A stretch of DNA of 60,916 bases. It comes from Pseudomonas eutrophicaquae (GTDB lineage Bacteria; Pseudomonadota; Gammaproteobacteria; Pseudomonadales; Pseudomonadaceae). The DNA is taken from contig NZ_JAMJEZ010000015.1 of the NCBI RefSeq assembly GCF_023544715.1, positions 1 through 60,916 of the forward strand. Reading direction: 5' to 3'. Of the stretch, positions 39,916 to 60,200 are shown in pieces (position 1 is the first letter of the stretch; each line of letters begins with the position of its first letter). A program made the translations under genes and the position numbers. The notes beneath the pieces are model-generated. The model did no database searches and had not been told where the DNA came from. It saw only the letters and a program-made list of their open reading frames with translations.

Positions 39916-40683
39916 TTAACGGGATTCGGACTGGTCGGCCAGGGCCGCCAGCAGGGCCGCAGCGCTGGCGCCGTGGCAGTTGCGTACATCAAGGGCGCCC
40001 GCTGCGCGGGCCAGTTCGGCGACCCGCTCACTGGGCACGAACAGCGGCAGACGCGCCACCTCTGGCCAGTGCGCGCCGGCCAGCTGCTGCAGATTGCTCA
40101 GCCCCTCACCACTGCTGACCACCAGGCCATTGAGCGCCTGCTCGCGCAGCGTGGCCAGCAGGGTACCGGCCGGATAGTCCGGCAGCACACGCCGGTACAG
40201 CGGCAGAAAATCGACCCGCACACCGCGTGCGCGCAGCTGAGCAGCAAGCCAGTCGCGCCCGCTGTCGCCGCGCAGGATCAGCACCTGCGCATCGGGCATA
40301 TTCAGCAGTGCCTGCACAGCCGGCAGCGCCAACAGCGCTTCGCTGTTATCGCCGTGCTCAGGCCAGTGGGCATCCAGGCCATAAGCCTCCAGCAGCGCGC
40401 CGGTGGCCGGGCCGACCGCAAACCAGCGCTGGCGGGCCGGTGGTTGCGGCCAGTAGCGATCCAGCAGCTCAAGCCCCAGGCGCGCGGCCGGTTTGCTGAC
40501 CGCAATCACCGCATCGTAGCGATCCAGATCGAGCAGCAGGCTGCGCTGCTCGGGAGTTTCCGCCAGCGGCTCGATGGCCAGCAGCGGCAGGCAATGGCCG
40601 AAGATTCCCTGCGCGGCGAGGGTCTGGGCCAGAGCGGCGCAGTCCTCGGCCGGACGGGTCAGCAGCAGACGCCAGTCGCTCAC
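39916..40683 (-). CDS. hemD: Uroporphyrinogen-III synthase
   Basis: HemD closes and inverts ring D of hydroxymethylbilane to make uroporphyrinogen III. The 255-residue product shows the weakly conserved HemD pattern: [17 protein letters not shown] at the N-terminus, [34 protein letters not shown] and a C-terminal SSGEGLSNL. The start is a GTG at 40683 overlapping the hemC stop by four bases (GTGA). Confidence 0.93.
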
Positions 40684-41618
40684 GGCTGGCCTGCGTCGCC
40701 GTAGACGGCGGCGAGGATGCGATCCGCGCCCTGAGCCAGCAGCGCCTCGGCCACCTGAACACCGAGCGCCTCGGCTTGCGCACGCGGGGCACATGCTTCG
40801 GCGCGCAGCAGCTCGCCGCCATCGGGCTGACCGACCAGTCCACGCAGCCACAGATCATCGCCATCGAGCAGCGCGTAGCAGGCAATCGGCACTTGGCAGC
40901 CGCCGTTGAGGTGCTTGTTCAGCGCGCGCTCAGCGTTGACCCGATCGGCAGTATCGGCGTGATGCAGCGGCGCCAGCAGCGCGTGCAGCTCAGCATCGGC
41001 CGTGCGGCACTCGATGCCCACCGCGCCCTGACCACCGGCCGGCAGGCTGTCTTCGGCGCTGATAAAGGCGCGGATGCGCGCCTCAAAGCCCAGGCGAATC
41101 AGCCCGGCGGCGGCGAGGATGATGGCGTCATACTCGCCGGCATCCAGTTTGGCCAGACGGGTGTTGACGTTGCCGCGCAGGAAGCGGATTTCCAGGTCCG
41201 GGCGGCGCGCCAGCAGCTGGGCCTGACGGCGCAGGCTGGAGGTACCGACCACACTACCGGCCGGCAGCGCGTCGAGGCTGGCGTAGGTATTGGAAACAAA
41301 GGCATCGCGCGGGTCTTCACGCTCGCAGATGCAGTACAGACCGAGGCCTTCGGGGAAGTCCATCGGCACATCCTTCATCGAATGCACAGCGATGTCGGCT
41401 TCGTTGTCCAGCAGGGCGGTTTCCAGTTCCTTGACGAACAGGCCCTTGCCGCCGATCTTGGCCAGCGGCGCATCGAGCAGCTTGTCGCCGCGACTGACCA
41501 TCGGTACCAGGGTCACGATCAGGCCCGGGTGGGCCGCTTCAAGGCGGGCCTTGACGTACTCGGCCTGCCACAGGGCGAGGGCACTCTTGCGGGTGGCGAT
41601 GCGGATTTCGCGGGGCAT
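40680..41618 (-). CDS. hemC: Porphobilinogen deaminase (hydroxymethylbilane synthase)
   Basis: HemC polymerises four porphobilinogens on a dipyrromethane cofactor. The 312-residue product has the cofactor-binding Cys at 241 in [13 protein letters not shown] and the catalytic Asp in [10 protein letters not shown] (residue 83). It also has [12 protein letters not shown] and [12 protein letters not shown]. The ATG at 41618 is used; a TTG two codons upstream is possible. It is the first gene of hemC-hemD-hemX-hemY. Confidence 0.97.
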
Positions 41619-41711
41619 GGGCAATTCCAGACGATCAGGGAAGTCGGCCGATGATAGCAGCTTGCCCGCCCGCCTCCGCAGGCCTGCCCGGCCAGATCAG
41701 CGCACCCGCGC

Positions 41712-42449
41712 TCACGACAATCCGCGCATCAGCTTGCGCAGGCCGCTGACATGCCGGCGACTGACCGTCAGGCTCGCCTCATCCAGCCCGCGCAGATAGA
41801 GCTGGAAGTAGCCATGCACATCGCGCTGCAAGTGATCGATGCGCTCGCGCATCACCAGCGCGTTGCGGTGGATGCGCACCAGGCGTTCGCCAAACTCCTC
41901 CTCCAGCCCCTTGAGGGTCTCATCGAGCAGCAGCTCGCCACCGGTATGGCGCAGGGTCACGTACTTGTGATCGGCAATGAAATACAGCACCTCCCCAAGC
42001 GCCACCAGCTCGACGCCGCGCCGGGTGCGCGCGCCGATATGGCTGCGCGGCGCCTGCCCCGGCTGGGGTGCGGCCACCAGGGCCAGCAGCTGGGCGCGAC
42101 TGGGCGCCACGGCAGCCGCCAGTGCGGCAGCCAGCCCATCAACGCCCTCGCTCAGGCACAGCAGCGCCAGCGCCTCGCGGCGCAGCCCGGCCAGCTGCGC
42201 CGCCTCGCCACACAGCACCAGCGCCGGGGACGGCTCGTATTCGCACAGGCGGGCCGCGACCTGCAGGCCATCGCCGGGCAGCGCCACATCTAGCAGGACG
42301 ATGTCCGGCTGCAGGCTGTCGATCTGCGCCAGCGCCTCGGCAACGCTGGCCACCTCGGCCGCAAGAGGGCGATAGCCCGGCAGCTGGCTGATCCACTCGG
42401 CCAGCTGCGCGCGGATCAGGGGTTCACCGGTGACGATCAGGACATTCAT
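41712..42449 (-). CDS. algR: AlgR-like LytTR regulator with a degenerate receiver domain
   Basis: AlgR is the LytTR-type response regulator of alginate, pili and virulence genes in Pseudomonas. The 245-residue product has an intact LytTR DNA-binding half (RSHIGARTRRGVELVALGEV, FIADHKYVTLRH, RLVRIHRNALV, TVSRRHVSGLRKLM). The receiver half keeps D54 in VLLDVALPG. It has lost the acidic pair (VDDEP is VTGEP, residues 6-10), the conserved Thr (the FCTA position reads LCGE) and the conserved Lys (the VKP position reads LSEGV). Phosphotransfer is therefore doubtful. The AlgZ kinase gene expected between algR and argH is absent. The ATG at 42449 has GGAG upstream. Confidence 0.92.
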   Translation of the reverse strand: MNVLIVTGEPLIRAQLAEWISQLPGYRPLAAEVASVAEALAQIDSLQPDIVLLDVALPGDGLQVAARLCEYEPSPALVLCGEAAQLAGLRREALALLCLSEGVDGLAAALAAAVAPSRAQLLALVAAPQPGQAPRSHIGARTRRGVELVALGEVLYFIADHKYVTLRHTGGELLLDETLKGLEEEFGERLVRIHRNALVMRERIDHLQRDVHGYFQLYLRGLDEASLTVSRRHVSGLRKLMRGLS

Positions 42450-42548
42450 GGGATCAGCTCCCTGCAAGGGTCACGTTCAAGCGTAGACTAACGCGCCCTG
42501 TGACCGTCGGTCATGATCAAAGTCATTTCCCGGCCAAACAGGCATTTC

Positions 42549-42564
42549 TGGCACGAAAAGTGCC
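42549..42564. promoter_or_regulatory. Near-palindromic sigma-54-like element between algR and argH
   Basis: TGGCACGAAAAGTGCC keeps the GG-N10-GC spacing of a -24/-12 promoter on the plus strand, 82 bases before the argH start. Because GGCAC/GTGCC is palindromic, it also reads as GG-N10-GC on the minus strand toward algR. It could equally be an operator hairpin. A second palindrome, TGACCGTCGGTCA, lies at 42501-42513. Confidence 0.35.
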
Positions 42565-42645
42565 CGCGAGGCATCGCCCGGCGGCCGTAGGCGACCTGCT
42601 ATCATGCCGGCCATTTTCGACCCGCATGCAGCACGAGAACTCCCA

Positions 42646-44040
42646 ATGAGCAGCGAAAAAACCAACCAGTCCTGGGGCGGCCGCTTCAGCGAGCCGGTCG
42701 ACGCCTTCGTCGCCCGCTTCACCGCCTCCGTCGACTTCGACAAGCGCCTGTACCGCCACGACATCATGGGCTCGATCGCCCACGCCACCATGCTCGAACA
42801 AGCCGGCGTGCTCACCGCCGCCGAGCGCGATGTGATCATCGACGGCCTGACACAGATCCAGGCCGAGATCGAGGCCGGCACCTTCGACTGGCGCGTCGAC
42901 CTGGAAGACGTGCACATGAACATCGAGGCGCGCCTGACCGACCGCATCGGCATCACCGGTAAGAAGCTGCACACCGGGCGTAGCCGCAACGACCAGGTCG
43001 CCACCGACATCCGCTTGTGGCTGCGCGACGAGATCGACGTGATCCTTGCCGAGATCACCCGTCTGCAGGAAGGTCTGCTGGAGCAGGCCGAGCAGCACGC
43101 CGAAGTGATCATGCCCGGCTTCACCCACCTGCAGACCGCGCAGCCGGTGAGCTTCGGCCACCACCTGCTGGCCTGGTTCGAGATGCTGTCGCGCGACTAC
43201 GAGCGCCTGGTCGACTGCCGCAAGCGGGTCAACCGCATGCCGCTGGGCTCGGCGGCGCTGGCCGGTACCACCTACCCGATCCAGCGCGAGATCACCTGTG
43301 AGCTGCTGGGTTTTGAGGCGATCGGCGGCAACTCGCTGGACGGCGTGTCGGATCGCGACTTCGCCATCGAATTCTGCGCCGCCGCCTCGCTGGCGATGAT
43401 GCACCTGTCGCGCTTCTCCGAGGAGCTGGTGCTGTGGACTTCCGCGCAGTTCAACTTCATCGAGCTGCCGGATCGTTTCTGCACCGGCTCCTCGATCATG
43501 CCGCAGAAGAAGAACCCCGACGTGCCCGAGCTGGTGCGCGGCAAGAGCGGCCGCGTGTTCGGCGCGCTGACCGGCCTCTTGACCCTGATGAAGGGCCAGC
43601 CGCTGGCCTACAACAAGGACAACCAGGAGGACAAGGAGCCGCTGTTCGACGCCGCCGACACCCTGCGCGACAGCCTGCGCGCCTTCGCCGACATGATCCC
43701 GGCGATCAAGCCGCGCGTCGAGGTGATGCGCGAGGCGGCGCGTCGCGGCTTCTCCACCGCCACGGATCTCGCCGACTACCTGGTGCGCAAGGGCCTGCCG
43801 TTCCGCGACTGCCACGAGATCGTCGGCCACGCGGTGAAGTACGGCGTCACCACCGGCAAGGACCTGGCCGAGATGAGCCTGGATGAGCTGCGCCAGTTCA
43901 GCGACCAGATCACCGACGACGTATTCGCCGTGCTGACCCTGGAAGGCTCGGTCAACGCCCGCAACCACATCGGCGGCACCGCCCCGGCGCAGGTGCGCGC
44001 CGCCGTGGCCCGCGGCCGCGAACTGCTGGCCGCACGCTGA
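42646..44040 (+). CDS. argH: Argininosuccinate lyase
   Basis: ArgH splits argininosuccinate into arginine and fumarate, the last step of arginine synthesis. The 464-residue product carries the fumarase/aspartase signature [11 protein letters not shown] at 281-291 with the catalytic Ser283 and the base His161 in [10 protein letters not shown]. The ATG at 42646 gives the usual N-terminus [14 protein letters not shown]. It is divergent from algR; no algZ lies between. Confidence 0.98.
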
Positions 44041-55094: not shown

Positions 55095-57056
55095 ATGGAA
55101 ACCTCCCCGCGCCTGGCGCGCACCCTCAACCCCCCGGTGTTCTTCGGCTCGGCCCTGCTGATCTTCGCCCTGGTCACCTTCGCCGTGGCCCTGCCACAGA
55201 CCGCCCAGGCCCTGTTCGGCCAGGTGCAGAACTGGATCGTCGGCAACGCCAGCTGGTTCTATGTGCTGGCCGTGGCACTGATCCTGATCACCGTGGCGTT
55301 TCTCGCCGTCAGCCGCTACGGCGACATCAAGCTCGGCCCCGACCACAGCCAGCCCGACTACAGCAACACCACCTGGTTCGCCATGCTGTTCTCCGCCGGC
55401 ATGGGCATCGGCCTGATGTTCTTCGGCGTCGCCGAGCCGGTGATGCACTTCGTCGCCCCGCCGGTCGGCGAGCCGAACACCGTGCAGGCAGCGCGCGAGG
55501 CACTGAAGCTGACCTTCTTCCACTGGGGCCTGCATGCCTGGGCGATCTACGCCATCGTCGCGCTGATCCTCGCCTTCTTCTGCTACCGGCATAACCTACC
55601 GCTGACCCTGCGCTCGGCGCTTTATCCCTTGATCGGCGAGCGCATCCACGGCCCGATCGGCCATGCGGTGGACATCTTCGCCATCCTCGGCACGGTGTTC
55701 GGCGTGGCCACCTCGCTGGGCTACGGCGTGCTGCAGATCAACAGCGGCCTCAACCACCTGTTCGGCGTGCCGGTCGGCACTGCGGTGCAGATCGGCCTGA
55801 TCATCGGCGTCACCGCGCTGGCCACCCTGTCGGTGGTCACCGGGCTGGACAAAGGCATCCGCCGCCTCTCCGAGCTGAACCTTGGCCTGGCCGTCTTGCT
55901 GCTGACGCTGGTGCTGGTGCTCGGCCCCACCGTGTACCTGCTGCAGACCTTTGTGCAGAACACCGGCAGCTATCTGTCGGAGATCGTCAGCAAGACCTTC
56001 AACCTCTACGCCTACGAGCCGACCGACTGGCTGGGCGGCTGGACCCTGCTGTACTGGGGCTGGTGGATGTCCTGGTCGCCGTTCGTCGGCATGTTCATCG
56101 CACGGGTCTCGCGCGGGCGGACCATCCGCCAGTTCGTCACCGGGGTGATGTTCGTCCCCGCCGGCTTCACCTTGCTGTGGATGACCGTGTTCGGCAACGG
56201 TGCTATCCACATGATCATGCAGGATGGTCTGGTCAGCCTGGCTGAGACGGTCAACCAGGACAGCTCGCTGGCGCTGTTCGCCTTCCTTGAGCAGTTCCCG
56301 CTGTCCAGCGTGCTGTCGGTGGTGGCGATCCTGATGGTGGTGGTGTTCTTCGTCACCTCGGCCGACTCCGGCGCCCTGGTGGTGGACATGCTCGCCTCTG
56401 GCGGTAACAGCCACACGCCGCTGTGGCAGCGGATCTTCTGGGCCGGCTCGATCGGCGTGGTGGCCATCGCCCTGCTGCTGGCCGATGGCCTCAGCGCCCT
56501 GCAGACCGCCACCATCGCCAGCGCCCTGCCGTTCTCGGTGATTTTGCTGGCCTCGATGTGGGGGCTGCTCAAGGCGCTGCACCTGGATTCCACCAAGCGC
56601 GTGCTGCGTCACCAGACCTCCGGGCATGCTCGCCAGACCCGCAGCCCCGGCGGCTGGCAGCGCCGGCTGCGCAATCTGGTGATGTTCCCGCGCCGCGCCC
56701 ACGTCAACCGCTTCCTCGATGAGGTGGTGCAGCCGGCGTGCCTGGCGGTGGCCGAGGAGCTGCGCAAGCAGAACCTCGTCGGTGAGGTGCAAAGCGGTGA
56801 CGATCACCGCGTGCGCCTGGAAGTGCGCCACGGCAGCGAAGTGGACTTCGTCTACGAGGTGCGCCCGCGCGCCTATGTGCAGCCGAGCTTCGTGATGCTC
56901 GAAGGCAACGAGGAGCGCAAGTACTTCCGCGCCGAAGTGCACCTGCTTGAGGGCGGCCAGGACTATGACGTGATGGGCTGGTCACGCGATGAGGTGATCG
57001 AGGACATCCTCGACCAGTACGAGCAGCACATGCACTTCTTGCATGTGGTGCGCTGA
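55095..57056 (+). CDS. betT: Choline transporter BetT (BCCT family)
   Basis: This is a secondary transporter of the betaine/choline/carnitine family for osmoprotectant uptake. The 653-residue protein has about twelve membrane helices and the BCCT glycine and tryptophan motifs (FSAGMGIGLMFFGVAEPV; LLYWGWWMSWSPFVGMFIAR). A long cytoplasmic C-terminal domain (after about residue 505) is typical of osmoregulated BetT. The ATG at 55095 is used; the frame extends to 54993 without membrane-protein character. Choline specificity is from family likeness and synteny. Confidence 0.93.
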   Translation: METSPRLARTLNPPVFFGSALLIFALVTFAVALPQTAQALFGQVQNWIVGNASWFYVLAVALILITVAFLAVSRYGDIKLGPDHSQPDYSNTTWFAMLFSAGMGIGLMFFGVAEPVMHFVAPPVGEPNTVQAAREALKLTFFHWGLHAWAIYAIVALILAFFCYRHNLPLTLRSALYPLIGERIHGPIGHAVDIFAILGTVFGVATSLGYGVLQINSGLNHLFGVPVGTAVQIGLIIGVTALATLSVVTGLDKGIRRLSELNLGLAVLLLTLVLVLGPTVYLLQTFVQNTGSYLSEIVSKTFNLYAYEPTDWLGGWTLLYWGWWMSWSPFVGMFIARVSRGRTIRQFVTGVMFVPAGFTLLWMTVFGNGAIHMIMQDGLVSLAETVNQDSSLALFAFLEQFPLSSVLSVVAILMVVVFFVTSADSGALVVDMLASGGNSHTPLWQRIFWAGSIGVVAIALLLADGLSALQTATIASALPFSVILLASMWGLLKALHLDSTKRVLRHQTSGHARQTRSPGGWQRRLRNLVMFPRRAHVNRFLDEVVQPACLAVAEELRKQNLVGEVQSGDDHRVRLEVRHGSEVDFVYEVRPRAYVQPSFVMLEGNEERKYFRAEVHLLEGGQDYDVMGWSRDEVIEDILDQYEQHMHFLHVVR

Positions 57057-57066
57057 GGGGGGCCTA

Positions 57067-57133
57067 GGTCAGAGCATAGCATTGCAGTCTCGCCAGAACT
57101 CCGCCGTCGAGGCAACGATGCCACGCTCTGACC
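57067..57133. repeat. 67-bp imperfect inverted repeat between betT and hsdR
   Basis: GGTCAGAGCATAGCAT at 57067-57082 is the reverse complement of 57118-57133 at 14 of 16 positions, and weaker pairing continues inward. A further CAGAGCAT copy sits near 57159. The element lies at the edge of the restriction locus. It may be a small mobile-element remnant or a long hairpin. Confidence 0.5.
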
Positions 57134-57213
57134 TTCATCGAACTCCAGAATGAAAGCCAGAGCATGTCACCGCGCGATCGGAGCCGGAGCCGCGCGAATA
57201 GATCAGCGTTGCC

Positions 57214-60200
57214 TTAGATCTGCCCACCCACACCTTTGAACTTCTCTACAAAAGCCGCGATTTTCTGGAAGACAGTCTGCTTCTTGGTCAGGAATTGCGG
57301 GTTCAATGGGCTCATCTTAGGCAGAACCGCGTTGAGCTCCGTGCCATTCTCGGTGGCAAACTCGCGCTTCAGTGAGTTGGTGATATAGCGCTTGGCGGCT
57401 TCTGCGTTCAGGCCCTCGTCGCTAATCAGCTCTGCAGCCTCTCGCTGCTGTTCCGCCTGAGCGAAAGTGAAGAAGGCCTCAATTACGCTGGCCTTGTCGC
57501 CAATCTTGTCCAGATCGGTCTGGTTGATGAAGTCCACCACCAGACTTTCTTTCGCGCGGTTACCCAGACTGGCGCGAATCACACGCCGCACTTCATCCAC
57601 CAGTTCCAACTTGCTCTTGGTCTTCTTGTTGTGCTCGAAAATCAGTTCCAGGATGTAGTCCAGGTTAATCTCTTGCGACTTCAGCAGGTCCACCTCAAAG
57701 ACCACGTCATCCCAGTCGATGGTGGACTTCTCTTTCTCGGCCCCCGCCTTCTCCCGGCGTAGCCAGTCGCGCACGTCGTTGTAGGTCGAGCGATAGTCCT
57801 GAACCTTCCGCTCGGGCGGGAGCGTGATGGCTTGCAGCGCGGTCAGGTCTTCGTCACTCAGGTAGTGCTTGGCCTTGAATGTCTCAACTGCGGCAGGGTC
57901 GGCCAGATCGACGCTTTGCAACTCCTTCAAGCTGGCAAATTCGTCATAGTTCTGCAGCACGTTCTCGACGCGTAGGTATTCGCCGAACAGCTTGGCGAAG
58001 GCCTTCTTGTCCGACTCTTTCTCAATGGCGGCCGGGTCAGGGAAGCGGGCTTCCAGTTCCTGCACCACATCCATGAAGCCCCGCCGCGCTTCACCTGTAG
58101 CCGCATCGGTGAAGCCTTCCATGTACTCCTTGTAGCTCTTCTCCAGCACCACGTTCTTGGTGTTCTTGTCACCGAACAGAGTGATGGCGTCGATGGTTGC
58201 CTGCTCCAGGTCGCGGAAGGTGACGATGTTGCCGAAGGTCTTGGTGGCGTCGAAGATGCGATTGGTACGTGAGTAGGCCTGCATCAGCCCGTGATAACGC
58301 AGGTTCTTGTCGACAAACAGCGTGTTGAGCGTGGGGGCATCAAAGCCGGTCAGGAACATACCCACCACGATGAGCAGGTCGATCTCCTTGGCCTTCACCT
58401 GTTTGGCCAGATCGCGGTAGTAGTTCTGGAAGCCGTTGCTGTCCACGCTGAAGTTGGTCTTGAACAGGGCGTTGTAGTCAGCGATGGCCGCGCTCAGGAA
58501 CTCCTTGGCGCTGCTGTTCATGGCCGAGACATCAAAGCTCTCGTCCTGGATGTCGCCAATCGCGTCCTGCTCTTCGTTGGCGGCAAACGAGAAGATGGTC
58601 GCCACTTTCAGCGGCTTGTCGCTGCTCTTCTGCAACTCGCGGAAGCACTCGTAGTACAGTTTGGCGGCATCCACACTGCTGACCGCAAACATAGCGTTAA
58701 AGCCCTTGTTGCCCGCGTGCAGGCGGTGGGTCTTTTGCCGGAAGTTGTTCAGGATGTACTGGGTGATCTCGCGGATACGATCCGGGTGCAGCAGGGCTTG
58801 CCGGTTCTCCGCCGCACTCAGCTTCTTCTCGTCCTGTTCGGTCTCGATAGCCTTGAACTGCGGGCGCACATCGTTGTAGTCCACCTTGAACTTCAGCACC
58901 TTCTCGTCGCGGATCGCATCGGTGATCACATACGAATGCAGCTCACGGCCAAACACGCTCGCCGTGGTTTCGGCGCCCAAGGCGTTCTCCGGGAAGATGG
59001 GCGTGCCAGTGAAGCCGAACTGGCAGAATTTCTTAAACTTCTTCTTCAGGTTCTTCTGGGCTTCACCAAACTGGCTGCGGTGGCACTCATCGAAAATGAA
59101 CACCACTGGCTTGCCGTAGATGGGCAAGTCCGCCTCACTTTTCATCAGGTTGTTGAGCTTCTGGATGGTGGTGACGACGATCTTGTTGTCGTCCTTCTCC
59201 AGGTTGCGCTTCAGGCCCGCCGTGCTGTCCGAGCCGTTGACGCTGTCCGGCGAGAAGCGCTGGTATTCCTTCATGGTCTGGTAGTCCAGATCCTTGCGGT
59301 CCACCACGAAGAACACCTTGTCGATGAAGTCCAGCTCCGTGGCCAGGCGCGCGGCCTTGAAGCTGGTCAAGGTCTTGCCGCTGCCGGTGGTGTGCCAGAT
59401 GTAGCCGCCACTTTCGGTGGTGCTCCAGTTCCTGGCCTGATAGCTGCTGTTGATCTTCCACAGAATGCGTTCCGTGGCAGCGATCTGATAGGGCCGCATC
59501 ACCAGCAGCGTGTTGCTGACGTCGAACACCGAGTAATGCAGCAGCACATTGAGCAGTGTGTGCTTCTGGAAGAAGGTGGCCGTGAAGTCCTTCAGGTCCT
59601 TGATCAGCGTGTTGTCCGACTTCGCCCAGTTCATGGTGAAGTCGAAGCTGTTTTTGTTGCGTTGCGTGGTGTTGGCGAAGTAGCGGCTGTCGGTGCCGTT
59701 GGAGATCACGAACAGCTGCAAATACTTGAACAGGGAATGCTCGCTGTTGAAGCTCTCCTTGCTGTAGCGGTGCACCTGGTTGAAGGCTTCGCGGATGGCC
59801 ACGCCACGCTTCTTCAGCTCCACCTGCACCAGCGGCAGGCCATTGACCAGAATCGTCACGTCGTAGCGGTTGGCGTGGCTGCCGGTCTGCTCGAACTGCT
59901 TGATCACCTGCACCTTGTTGCGGGTGATGTTTTTCTTGTCCAGCAGGTAGATGTTCTGGATGCGCCCGTCGTCAAACACGAAGTCGTGGATGTAGTCGTC
60001 GTGTATCTTGCGGGTCTTCTCGACGATGCCATCGCTGGGCTTGTCGAGGAAGGTTTCAACAAACCGCAGCCACTCGCCATCGGCAAACTGCACGTCATTC
60101 AGTGCTTGCAGCTGTACGCGCACATTAGCGAGCAAGGCATCGGGCGCGTTCAGTCCGGGCAGATATTCATAACCCTGGTTCTGCAGATCCTGAATGAACT

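Follow-up and report, generated by a model that had tools for sequence, protein, structure and literature searches.

The DNA analyzed here is a stretch of 60,916 nucleotides from Pseudomonas eutrophicaquae (contig NZ_JAMJEZ010000015.1, positions 1 to 60,916; hereafter the window), in which the gene for the response regulator AlgR lies between hemC and argH and the gene for its kinase, algZ, is missing. The regulator was assigned as an AlgR ortholog based on this synteny, the presence of both a receiver and a LytTR domain, and a full-length match; over residues 1–244 it is 57–61% identical to AlgR of eight other genomes of the genus. Genera, genomes, and loci are labeled by numbers (g, G, and L), the window genome being G000. 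The receiver pocket was read against AlgR of G051, a genome of the same genus that has AlgZ; in that AlgR it consists of D7, D8, D54, T82, and K102. The features of the locus are listed below; dN/dS is the ratio of nonsynonymous to synonymous substitution rates.

41712..42449, minus strand: algR, stop codon included, ATG at 42449; 245 amino acids, with Pfam Response_reg and LytTR
42117..42446, minus strand: receiver half of AlgR, now a pseudo-receiver (borders set from the alignment; domain match, pocket residues, dN/dS, and AlphaFold2)
42426..42431, minus strand: codons of residues 7–8, Thr-Gly, where relatives have Asp-Asp
42288..42290, minus strand: codon of the phospho-acceptor D54, still Asp (lost in G062, G027, and G052)
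42207..42209, minus strand: codon of Gly81, at the place of the switch residue Thr82 (alignment)
42153..42155, minus strand: codon of Leu99, at the place of the switch residue Lys102 (alignment)
41727..42011, minus strand: LytTR DNA-binding domain, conserved (Pfam and alignment)
42450..42645: gap of 196 bp between algR and argH, lacking algZ (about 1.1 kb in G051); its algR-side part aligns with the end of G051 algZ
42536..42563, minus strand: remnant of an AlgU-type promoter of algR, with GCACTT kept, N17, and TGTTT in place of TCTnA
40680..41624, minus strand: hemC, downstream neighbor
42646..44040, plus strand: argH, divergent neighbor

In P. aeruginosa, hemCD is co-transcribed with algZR (PMC5790918).

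Asp7, Asp8, Asp54, Thr82, and Lys102 are the residues that passages of PMC4064291 name for AlgR phosphorylation. The window AlgR reads T7 G8 D54 G81 L99 at these positions, i.e., four of the five are changed and only D54 is kept. It thus lacks the five-residue set of a canonical response regulator and belongs to the pseudo-receivers as defined in passages of a 2025 review (receivers in which at least one of the five residues is lacking; PMC12632262). The initial annotation, which was made from the letters of the window, had described a changed acidic pair, a replaced Thr and Lys, a retained aspartate, and an intact LytTR half. All of this agrees with our alignments: D7 and D8 of G051 AlgR correspond to T and G, T82 to Gly81, and K102 to Leu99, D54 is matched by Asp, and the LytTR half has its Pfam match, with N196, R231, and R232 invariant in a 34-row alignment. 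The AlphaFold2 model built with this alignment still predicts a receiver fold, and does so with high confidence (mean pLDDT, the predicted local distance difference test, 91.8). The algR frame is open, without any stop or frame break, and the changes are scattered over the receiver half.

The window assembly totals 2,547,935 bases, spread over 57 contigs, with a completeness rating of 99.85%. No match to PF06580, a domain of AlgZ-type kinases, was found in it by a profile search that gave matches in 3 of 14 control genomes, and a protein search with AlgZ of G051 also returned no match. A LytTR search detected a single protein, this AlgR. A relocated algZ and a second canonical algR were rejected on the basis of these searches, and the cognate kinase expected of a canonical two-component regulator was found neither by PF06580 nor by AlgZ. 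The algR–argH gap is itself too short for algZ, which occupies about 1.1 kb upstream of algR in G051; the 196-bp separation and the absence of algZ had been correctly noticed at the outset, in a range (41712..42645) covering algR and the gap.

To place the window in its genus, nine genomes were compared, all of which contain AlgR. In seven of them PF06580 is matched and a full AlgZ lies in the AlgR locus, and all seven AlgRs are canonical at the five pocket positions; G000 and G062 have neither PF06580 nor AlgZ. G062, a one-contig genome, shows a receiver decay that differs from, and is deeper than, that of G000: Asp7 is replaced by Ala, Thr82 by Pro, and Lys102 by Leu, and the Asp54 stretch is missing from the alignment. 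The expectation that relatives would share the substitutions and lack algZ was therefore borne out in one respect, as G062 is AlgZ-less with a decayed receiver, but its substitutions are mostly different. The algR–argH gap of G062 is also 196 bp long and alignable with the G000 gap; the part adjoining algR matches the end of G051 algZ in either genome, which suggests a single algZ deletion shared by the two. Trees of argH, hemC, and hemD paired G000 with G062 in one of three treatments (all codon positions, low support) and did not pair them using codon positions 1+2 or proteins; the pairing was rejected in no treatment (approximately unbiased test, P = 0.14, 0.40, and 0.49). A family tree based on two genes (see below) separates the two genomes. 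The window genome is small, at 2.55 Mb versus 3.2–4.7 Mb in the genus.

We then analyzed the relationship between kinase and receiver pocket in Pseudomonadaceae. The first sample was an even draw of 199 genomes, 170 with PF06580 and 29 without. None of the latter has a full AlgZ; 14 hold AlgZ fragments; with few exceptions these lie immediately upstream of algR, and stop codons interrupt some of them. AlgR is present in 26 of these 29 genomes. All 26 AlgZ-less AlgRs were compared with 75 controls from the 170 PF06580 genomes (7 from this genus and the others from various genera), 2 of 77 control loci examined having been dropped as not AlgR: L001 (G029; 33% identity) and L010 (a paralog in G095). 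The five residues are kept in 75/75 AlgZ-bearing loci, and at least one is lost in 18/26 AlgZ-less loci. Thr82 is lost in all 18 (alone in 13), Lys102 in 5, Asp54 in 3, Asp7 in 2, and Asp8 in 2.

The three genomes of the draw in which no AlgR or AlgZ was found (G012, G042, and G054, the last 77% complete) are all g12, a genus represented by four genomes. In the fourth, G029, the regulator beside the PF06580 match (L001) is the one that is 33% identical to AlgR; the rest of G029 was not searched for AlgR.

A second, nonrandom sample consisted of the best 80, by likeness to the window AlgR, of at least 462 confirmed GTDB loci found by two peptide patterns. The pocket is intact in 34/34 AlgZ-bearing loci of these best 80, 6 of which share their AlgR sequence with a genome of the first sample, and altered in 21/46 AlgZ-less loci. 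When the samples are pooled, the pocket is altered in 0/109 loci with a full AlgZ (102 unique AlgRs) versus 39/72 AlgZ-less loci, counts that include 7 exact duplicates among the 181 sequences. The association of AlgZ and pocket exceeds chance, as none of the 109 full-AlgZ loci deviates at any of the five positions. Record names of AlgZ-less loci include P. fluorescens, koreensis, mandelii, chlororaphis, and lactis, as well as P. capeferrum and P. guariconensis, which we grouped as P. putida kind.

Kinase loss and receiver decay thus go together, as the initial annotation had proposed. An order of events can be added: because no AlgZ-bearing locus is altered while 33/72 AlgZ-less loci are unchanged, kinase loss seems to precede receiver decay. 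Similarly, Thr82 is changed in 39/39 altered loci, mostly alone, and seems to be lost first, the other pocket residues following without clear order; Asp54 is lost in G062, G027, and G052. Median identity to the nearest AlgZ-bearing AlgR is 0.787 for the receiver and 0.962 for LytTR in the 72 AlgZ-less loci, versus 0.974 and 0.990 in the 109 AlgZ-bearing loci.

The independence of the losses was investigated with a family tree of 127 tips, built from the argH and hemC proteins (one or both genes are lacking in 5 of 128 loci). If never regained, algZ was lost in ten places on this tree. Since several nodes are weak, we counted these down by genus label and tree to at least seven lineages: g1, g10, g15, g17, g18, the P. 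fluorescens type, and the P. putida type. Pocket changes are seen in each of these except the last, i.e., in at least six. The split between the P. fluorescens and P. putida types rests on one AlgZ-bearing genome (L236), with a node support of 0.75. Under parsimony, pseudo-receiver status changes 13 times, and every change can be assigned to an AlgZ-less branch; such branches account for 1.645 of the 5.144 units of tree length. G135 (L275) is labeled g9 and was placed by argH and hemC among the P. putida-type g14 genomes, with the same AlgZ loss.

Selection was then estimated separately for the two halves of AlgR. Pairwise, non-independent dN/dS values by the NG86 method were 0.63–0.87 for the receiver and 0.31–0.56 for LytTR when G000 or G062 was compared with other genomes of the genus, versus 0–0.175 and 0–0.255 among the seven AlgZ-bearing genomes. 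The anticipated difference between the halves is therefore found in the G000 and G062 pairs. Codon models were applied to sets freed of duplicates (67, 61, and 4 sequences, drawn from 102 and 72 unique ones); these omega values (the dN/dS of the models) are rough, as the alignments are short and have fewer sites than parameters. For receiver and LytTR, respectively, omega was 0.090 and 0.010 in 61 AlgZ-less P. fluorescens/P. putida-type sequences, 0.206 and 0.031 in four g17 genomes, and 0.035 and 0.022 in 67 AlgZ-bearing sequences. In each of the three AlgZ-less sets tested, these substitution patterns point to a receiver that is relaxed compared with LytTR, and to a nearly neutral one in this genus.

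According to passages of PMC4064291, the AlgU site of P. aeruginosa algR is GCACTT-N17-TCTGA. We searched with an AlgU-type pattern that is looser than this site and was built from the AlgU consensus and the upstream alignment before the published site was seen. Such a site occurs within 200 bp upstream of algR in 95/109 AlgZ-bearing and 59/72 AlgZ-less loci, versus 0.6% in base-shuffled sequences, and it lies at −106/−107 in 88/95 and 57/59 of them, respectively. In G051 this position lies within the final part of the algZ frame. When AlgZ-less P. fluorescens-type loci are inspected by eye, conservation in many of them sets in at GCACTT and is much lower ahead of it, as expected if the promoter, not the kinase, is kept. 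The stricter form GCACTT-N17-TCTnA is present in G062; the window genome has GCACTT-N17-TGTTT and has lost the −10 half. RseA_N, the domain of MucA-type anti-sigma factors, was matched in 25 of 26 genomes asked, including the window genome; the miss is G052, rated 70% complete.

In L101, L102, L104, and other P. fluorescens-type loci, an algZ remnant is seen upstream of algR, with approximately the last 70 codons recognizable and some stops. The AlgU-type site of algR sits at the end of this remnant in L101-, L102-, and L104-like loci.

We also considered the targets of AlgR. In P. aeruginosa, expression from the AlgU/RpoS-driven promoter yields AlgR that is mostly unphosphorylated; this form acts at algD and algC and induces nrdJ and, less clearly, nrdA, and phosphorylated AlgR is required for fimU-pilVWXY1Y2E (passages of PMC4064291 and PMC10134789). 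PilY1 has no match in the window genome and strong matches in G062, G010, G027, and others. The alginate exporter AlgE has no match in G000 or G062 and weak matches in AlgZ-bearing genomes of the genus. An explanation of algZ loss by loss of alginate or type IV pili was rejected, as no clean link was found in 60 genomes: PilY1 and AlgE are present and absent on both sides, and the phospho-dependent target PilY1 is not cleanly lost with AlgZ.

Some side observations concern the ribonucleotide reductase genes and the window itself. A second PF02867 match of the NrdJ kind is absent in G062 and G000 and present in G051, G070, G158, and G057; G128 has one match only. In G057, PF02867 of NrdA (L305, L310; C1:3403710-3406451) is in two pieces with an open frame of about 1.1 kb between them, in a 1390-amino-acid frame without stop, which looks like an intein. 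In the window, G+C drops to 0.594 at 56001–60000, the other 4-kb steps ranging from 0.637 to 0.704.

Taken together, it is quite probable that the window genome encodes an AlgR that has become an atypical response regulator, whose kinase has been lost, whose receiver has decayed to a pseudo-receiver, and which persists as a phosphorylation-independent protein. The first step is visible in the genome comparison: algZ was deleted, and what remains is the argH leader together with a fragment of the algZ end. The receiver would then decay under weak constraint; the loss of residues can be read directly, and from what is known of receivers the loss of phosphorylation would follow. The receiver fold may be kept as a scaffold while the LytTR half would still bind promoters, like unphosphorylated AlgR of P. 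aeruginosa. What would vary is the amount of AlgR, as set by transcription, in place of a phosphoryl signal. In most AlgZ-less relatives this transcription would start at the AlgU-type promoter that lies within the algZ remnant, the site of the window genome itself having no −10 half. A phosphorylation-independent AlgR with preserved DNA binding had been suggested by the initial annotation; the first part is supported, and DNA binding is predicted from a LytTR half that is kept yet somewhat relaxed. We infer that the AlgZ-less lineages would have settled on the unphosphorylated mode, with output following AlgR amount. For the family as a whole, the evidence leans toward a history in which at least seven Pseudomonadaceae lineages lost the kinase, often sparing the embedded promoter, followed in at least six by receiver decay that began with Thr82, so that kinase control would have given way to AlgU-driven abundance control.

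Several observations weigh against this interpretation. All five residues are kept in the 33/72 AlgZ-less loci, including 5/5 P. putida-type tips, and AlgR of these loci could still be phosphorylated by small donors or another kinase. An AlgU-type site is lacking in 13/72 AlgZ-less loci, namely the window genome and 12 others (four g17 genomes, G027, G046, G052, G135, G167, G191, L177, and L210). The weak nodes of the two-gene tree bear on the number of losses. A scan for AlgR boxes upstream of nrdA (at most one mismatch) gave a mixed picture, with one site each in G000 and G158 and none in G062, G128, G051, and G070. The window genome has neither an AlgE nor a PilY1 match and so lacks part of the known AlgR targets. 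Finally, its LytTR dN/dS (0.31–0.45) is above that of most AlgZ-bearing pairs (0–0.255), and the whole AlgR protein may be loosening in this genome.

Some of these points would fit an AlgR on its way out, in which LytTR would follow the kinase and the receiver and little function would be left in a reduced genome. The small genome, the raised LytTR dN/dS, the lost −10 half, and the missing targets are consistent with such a fate, as are the three g12 genomes (one 77% complete) in which no AlgR or AlgZ was found. On the other hand, the frame is open, the proposed DNA-contact residues of LytTR are invariant, LytTR dN/dS is well below 1 and below that of the receiver, and AlgR is kept in 26 of the 29 genomes without PF06580 in the family draw. 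We consider this outcome unlikely, albeit the strongest of the alternatives. Somewhat less likely again is the recruitment of the receiver to a new, phosphorylation-free signal, which could be a small molecule or a partner protein; some known pseudo-receivers have been proposed to work in this way. The predicted receiver fold would suit it, as would the purifying selection on the receiver in the 61 AlgZ-less P. fluorescens/P. putida-type sequences (omega 0.090), but in the G000 and G062 pairs the receiver is near neutral, and these two receivers are strongly unlike each other.

That the window AlgR is still phosphorylated, by another kinase or acetyl phosphate, is very improbable: small donors do phosphorylate P. 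aeruginosa AlgR (passages of PMC4064291) and many AlgZ-less loci keep all five residues, but the window AlgR retains neither the Asp pair nor Thr nor Lys, and Asp54 is gone in G062, G027, and G052. An assembly or sequencing error that removed algZ and altered the receiver can be practically dismissed despite the 57 contigs, and error is an unlikely source of the receiver changes, because algR, the gap, and argH lie inside one contig, the frame is open with the changes spread over the receiver, and the one-contig G062 has an equal gap and its own, different and deeper decay.

The phosphorylation-independent AlgR proposed here was compared with known systems. As in AlgZ/AlgR (FimS/AlgR) of P. 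aeruginosa, a two-domain AlgR is found upstream of hemC and beside argH, and in most relatives GCACTT-N17-TCnnA upstream of algR matches the published P. aeruginosa site; the window genome differs in having no kinase and in four of the five phosphorylation residues. FimS/AlgR is also listed for three P. syringae strains in a table of PMC2222644. For P. putida KT2440, a table in PMC12112638 lists algR as PP_0185 and algZ as nd; its passages on this strain are silent on the receiver, and the P. putida-type loci studied here keep all five residues. Pseudo-receivers are a known kind of protein, and CosR/CosS of Campylobacter is a close precedent (passages of PMC12632262 and PMC3938529, respectively). 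In the latter, the kinase gene is present in one species group and absent in the other, and CosR of the kinase-less group has no phosphorylated Asp and may act without phosphorylation. However, CosR is an OmpR-type regulator, and passages of PMC3938529 describe one split between two groups, with no repeated staged series and no promoter remnant. Among the atypical response regulators of PMC12632262, the aspartate-less receivers find their counterparts in G062, G027, and G052; what differs here is that canonical AlgR and its kinase are still present in close relatives. Neither AlgR nor LytTR occurs in the main text of that review, and no description of AlgZ loss together with AlgR receiver decay was found in the literature searched, whose coverage leaves out most subscription papers.

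According to passages of the same review, pseudo-receivers seem to have evolved many times, but whether they have converged functionally is not clear. Within one orthologous regulator, AlgR offers a replicated series that comprises intact, half-decayed, and Asp-less receivers, with the complete pair retained in close relatives, and thus a natural experiment on the breakdown of two-component signaling pairs. It also follows that results on AlgZ-dependent signaling in P. aeruginosa may not transfer to kinase-less groups, the P. fluorescens-type and P. putida-type genomes studied here among them.
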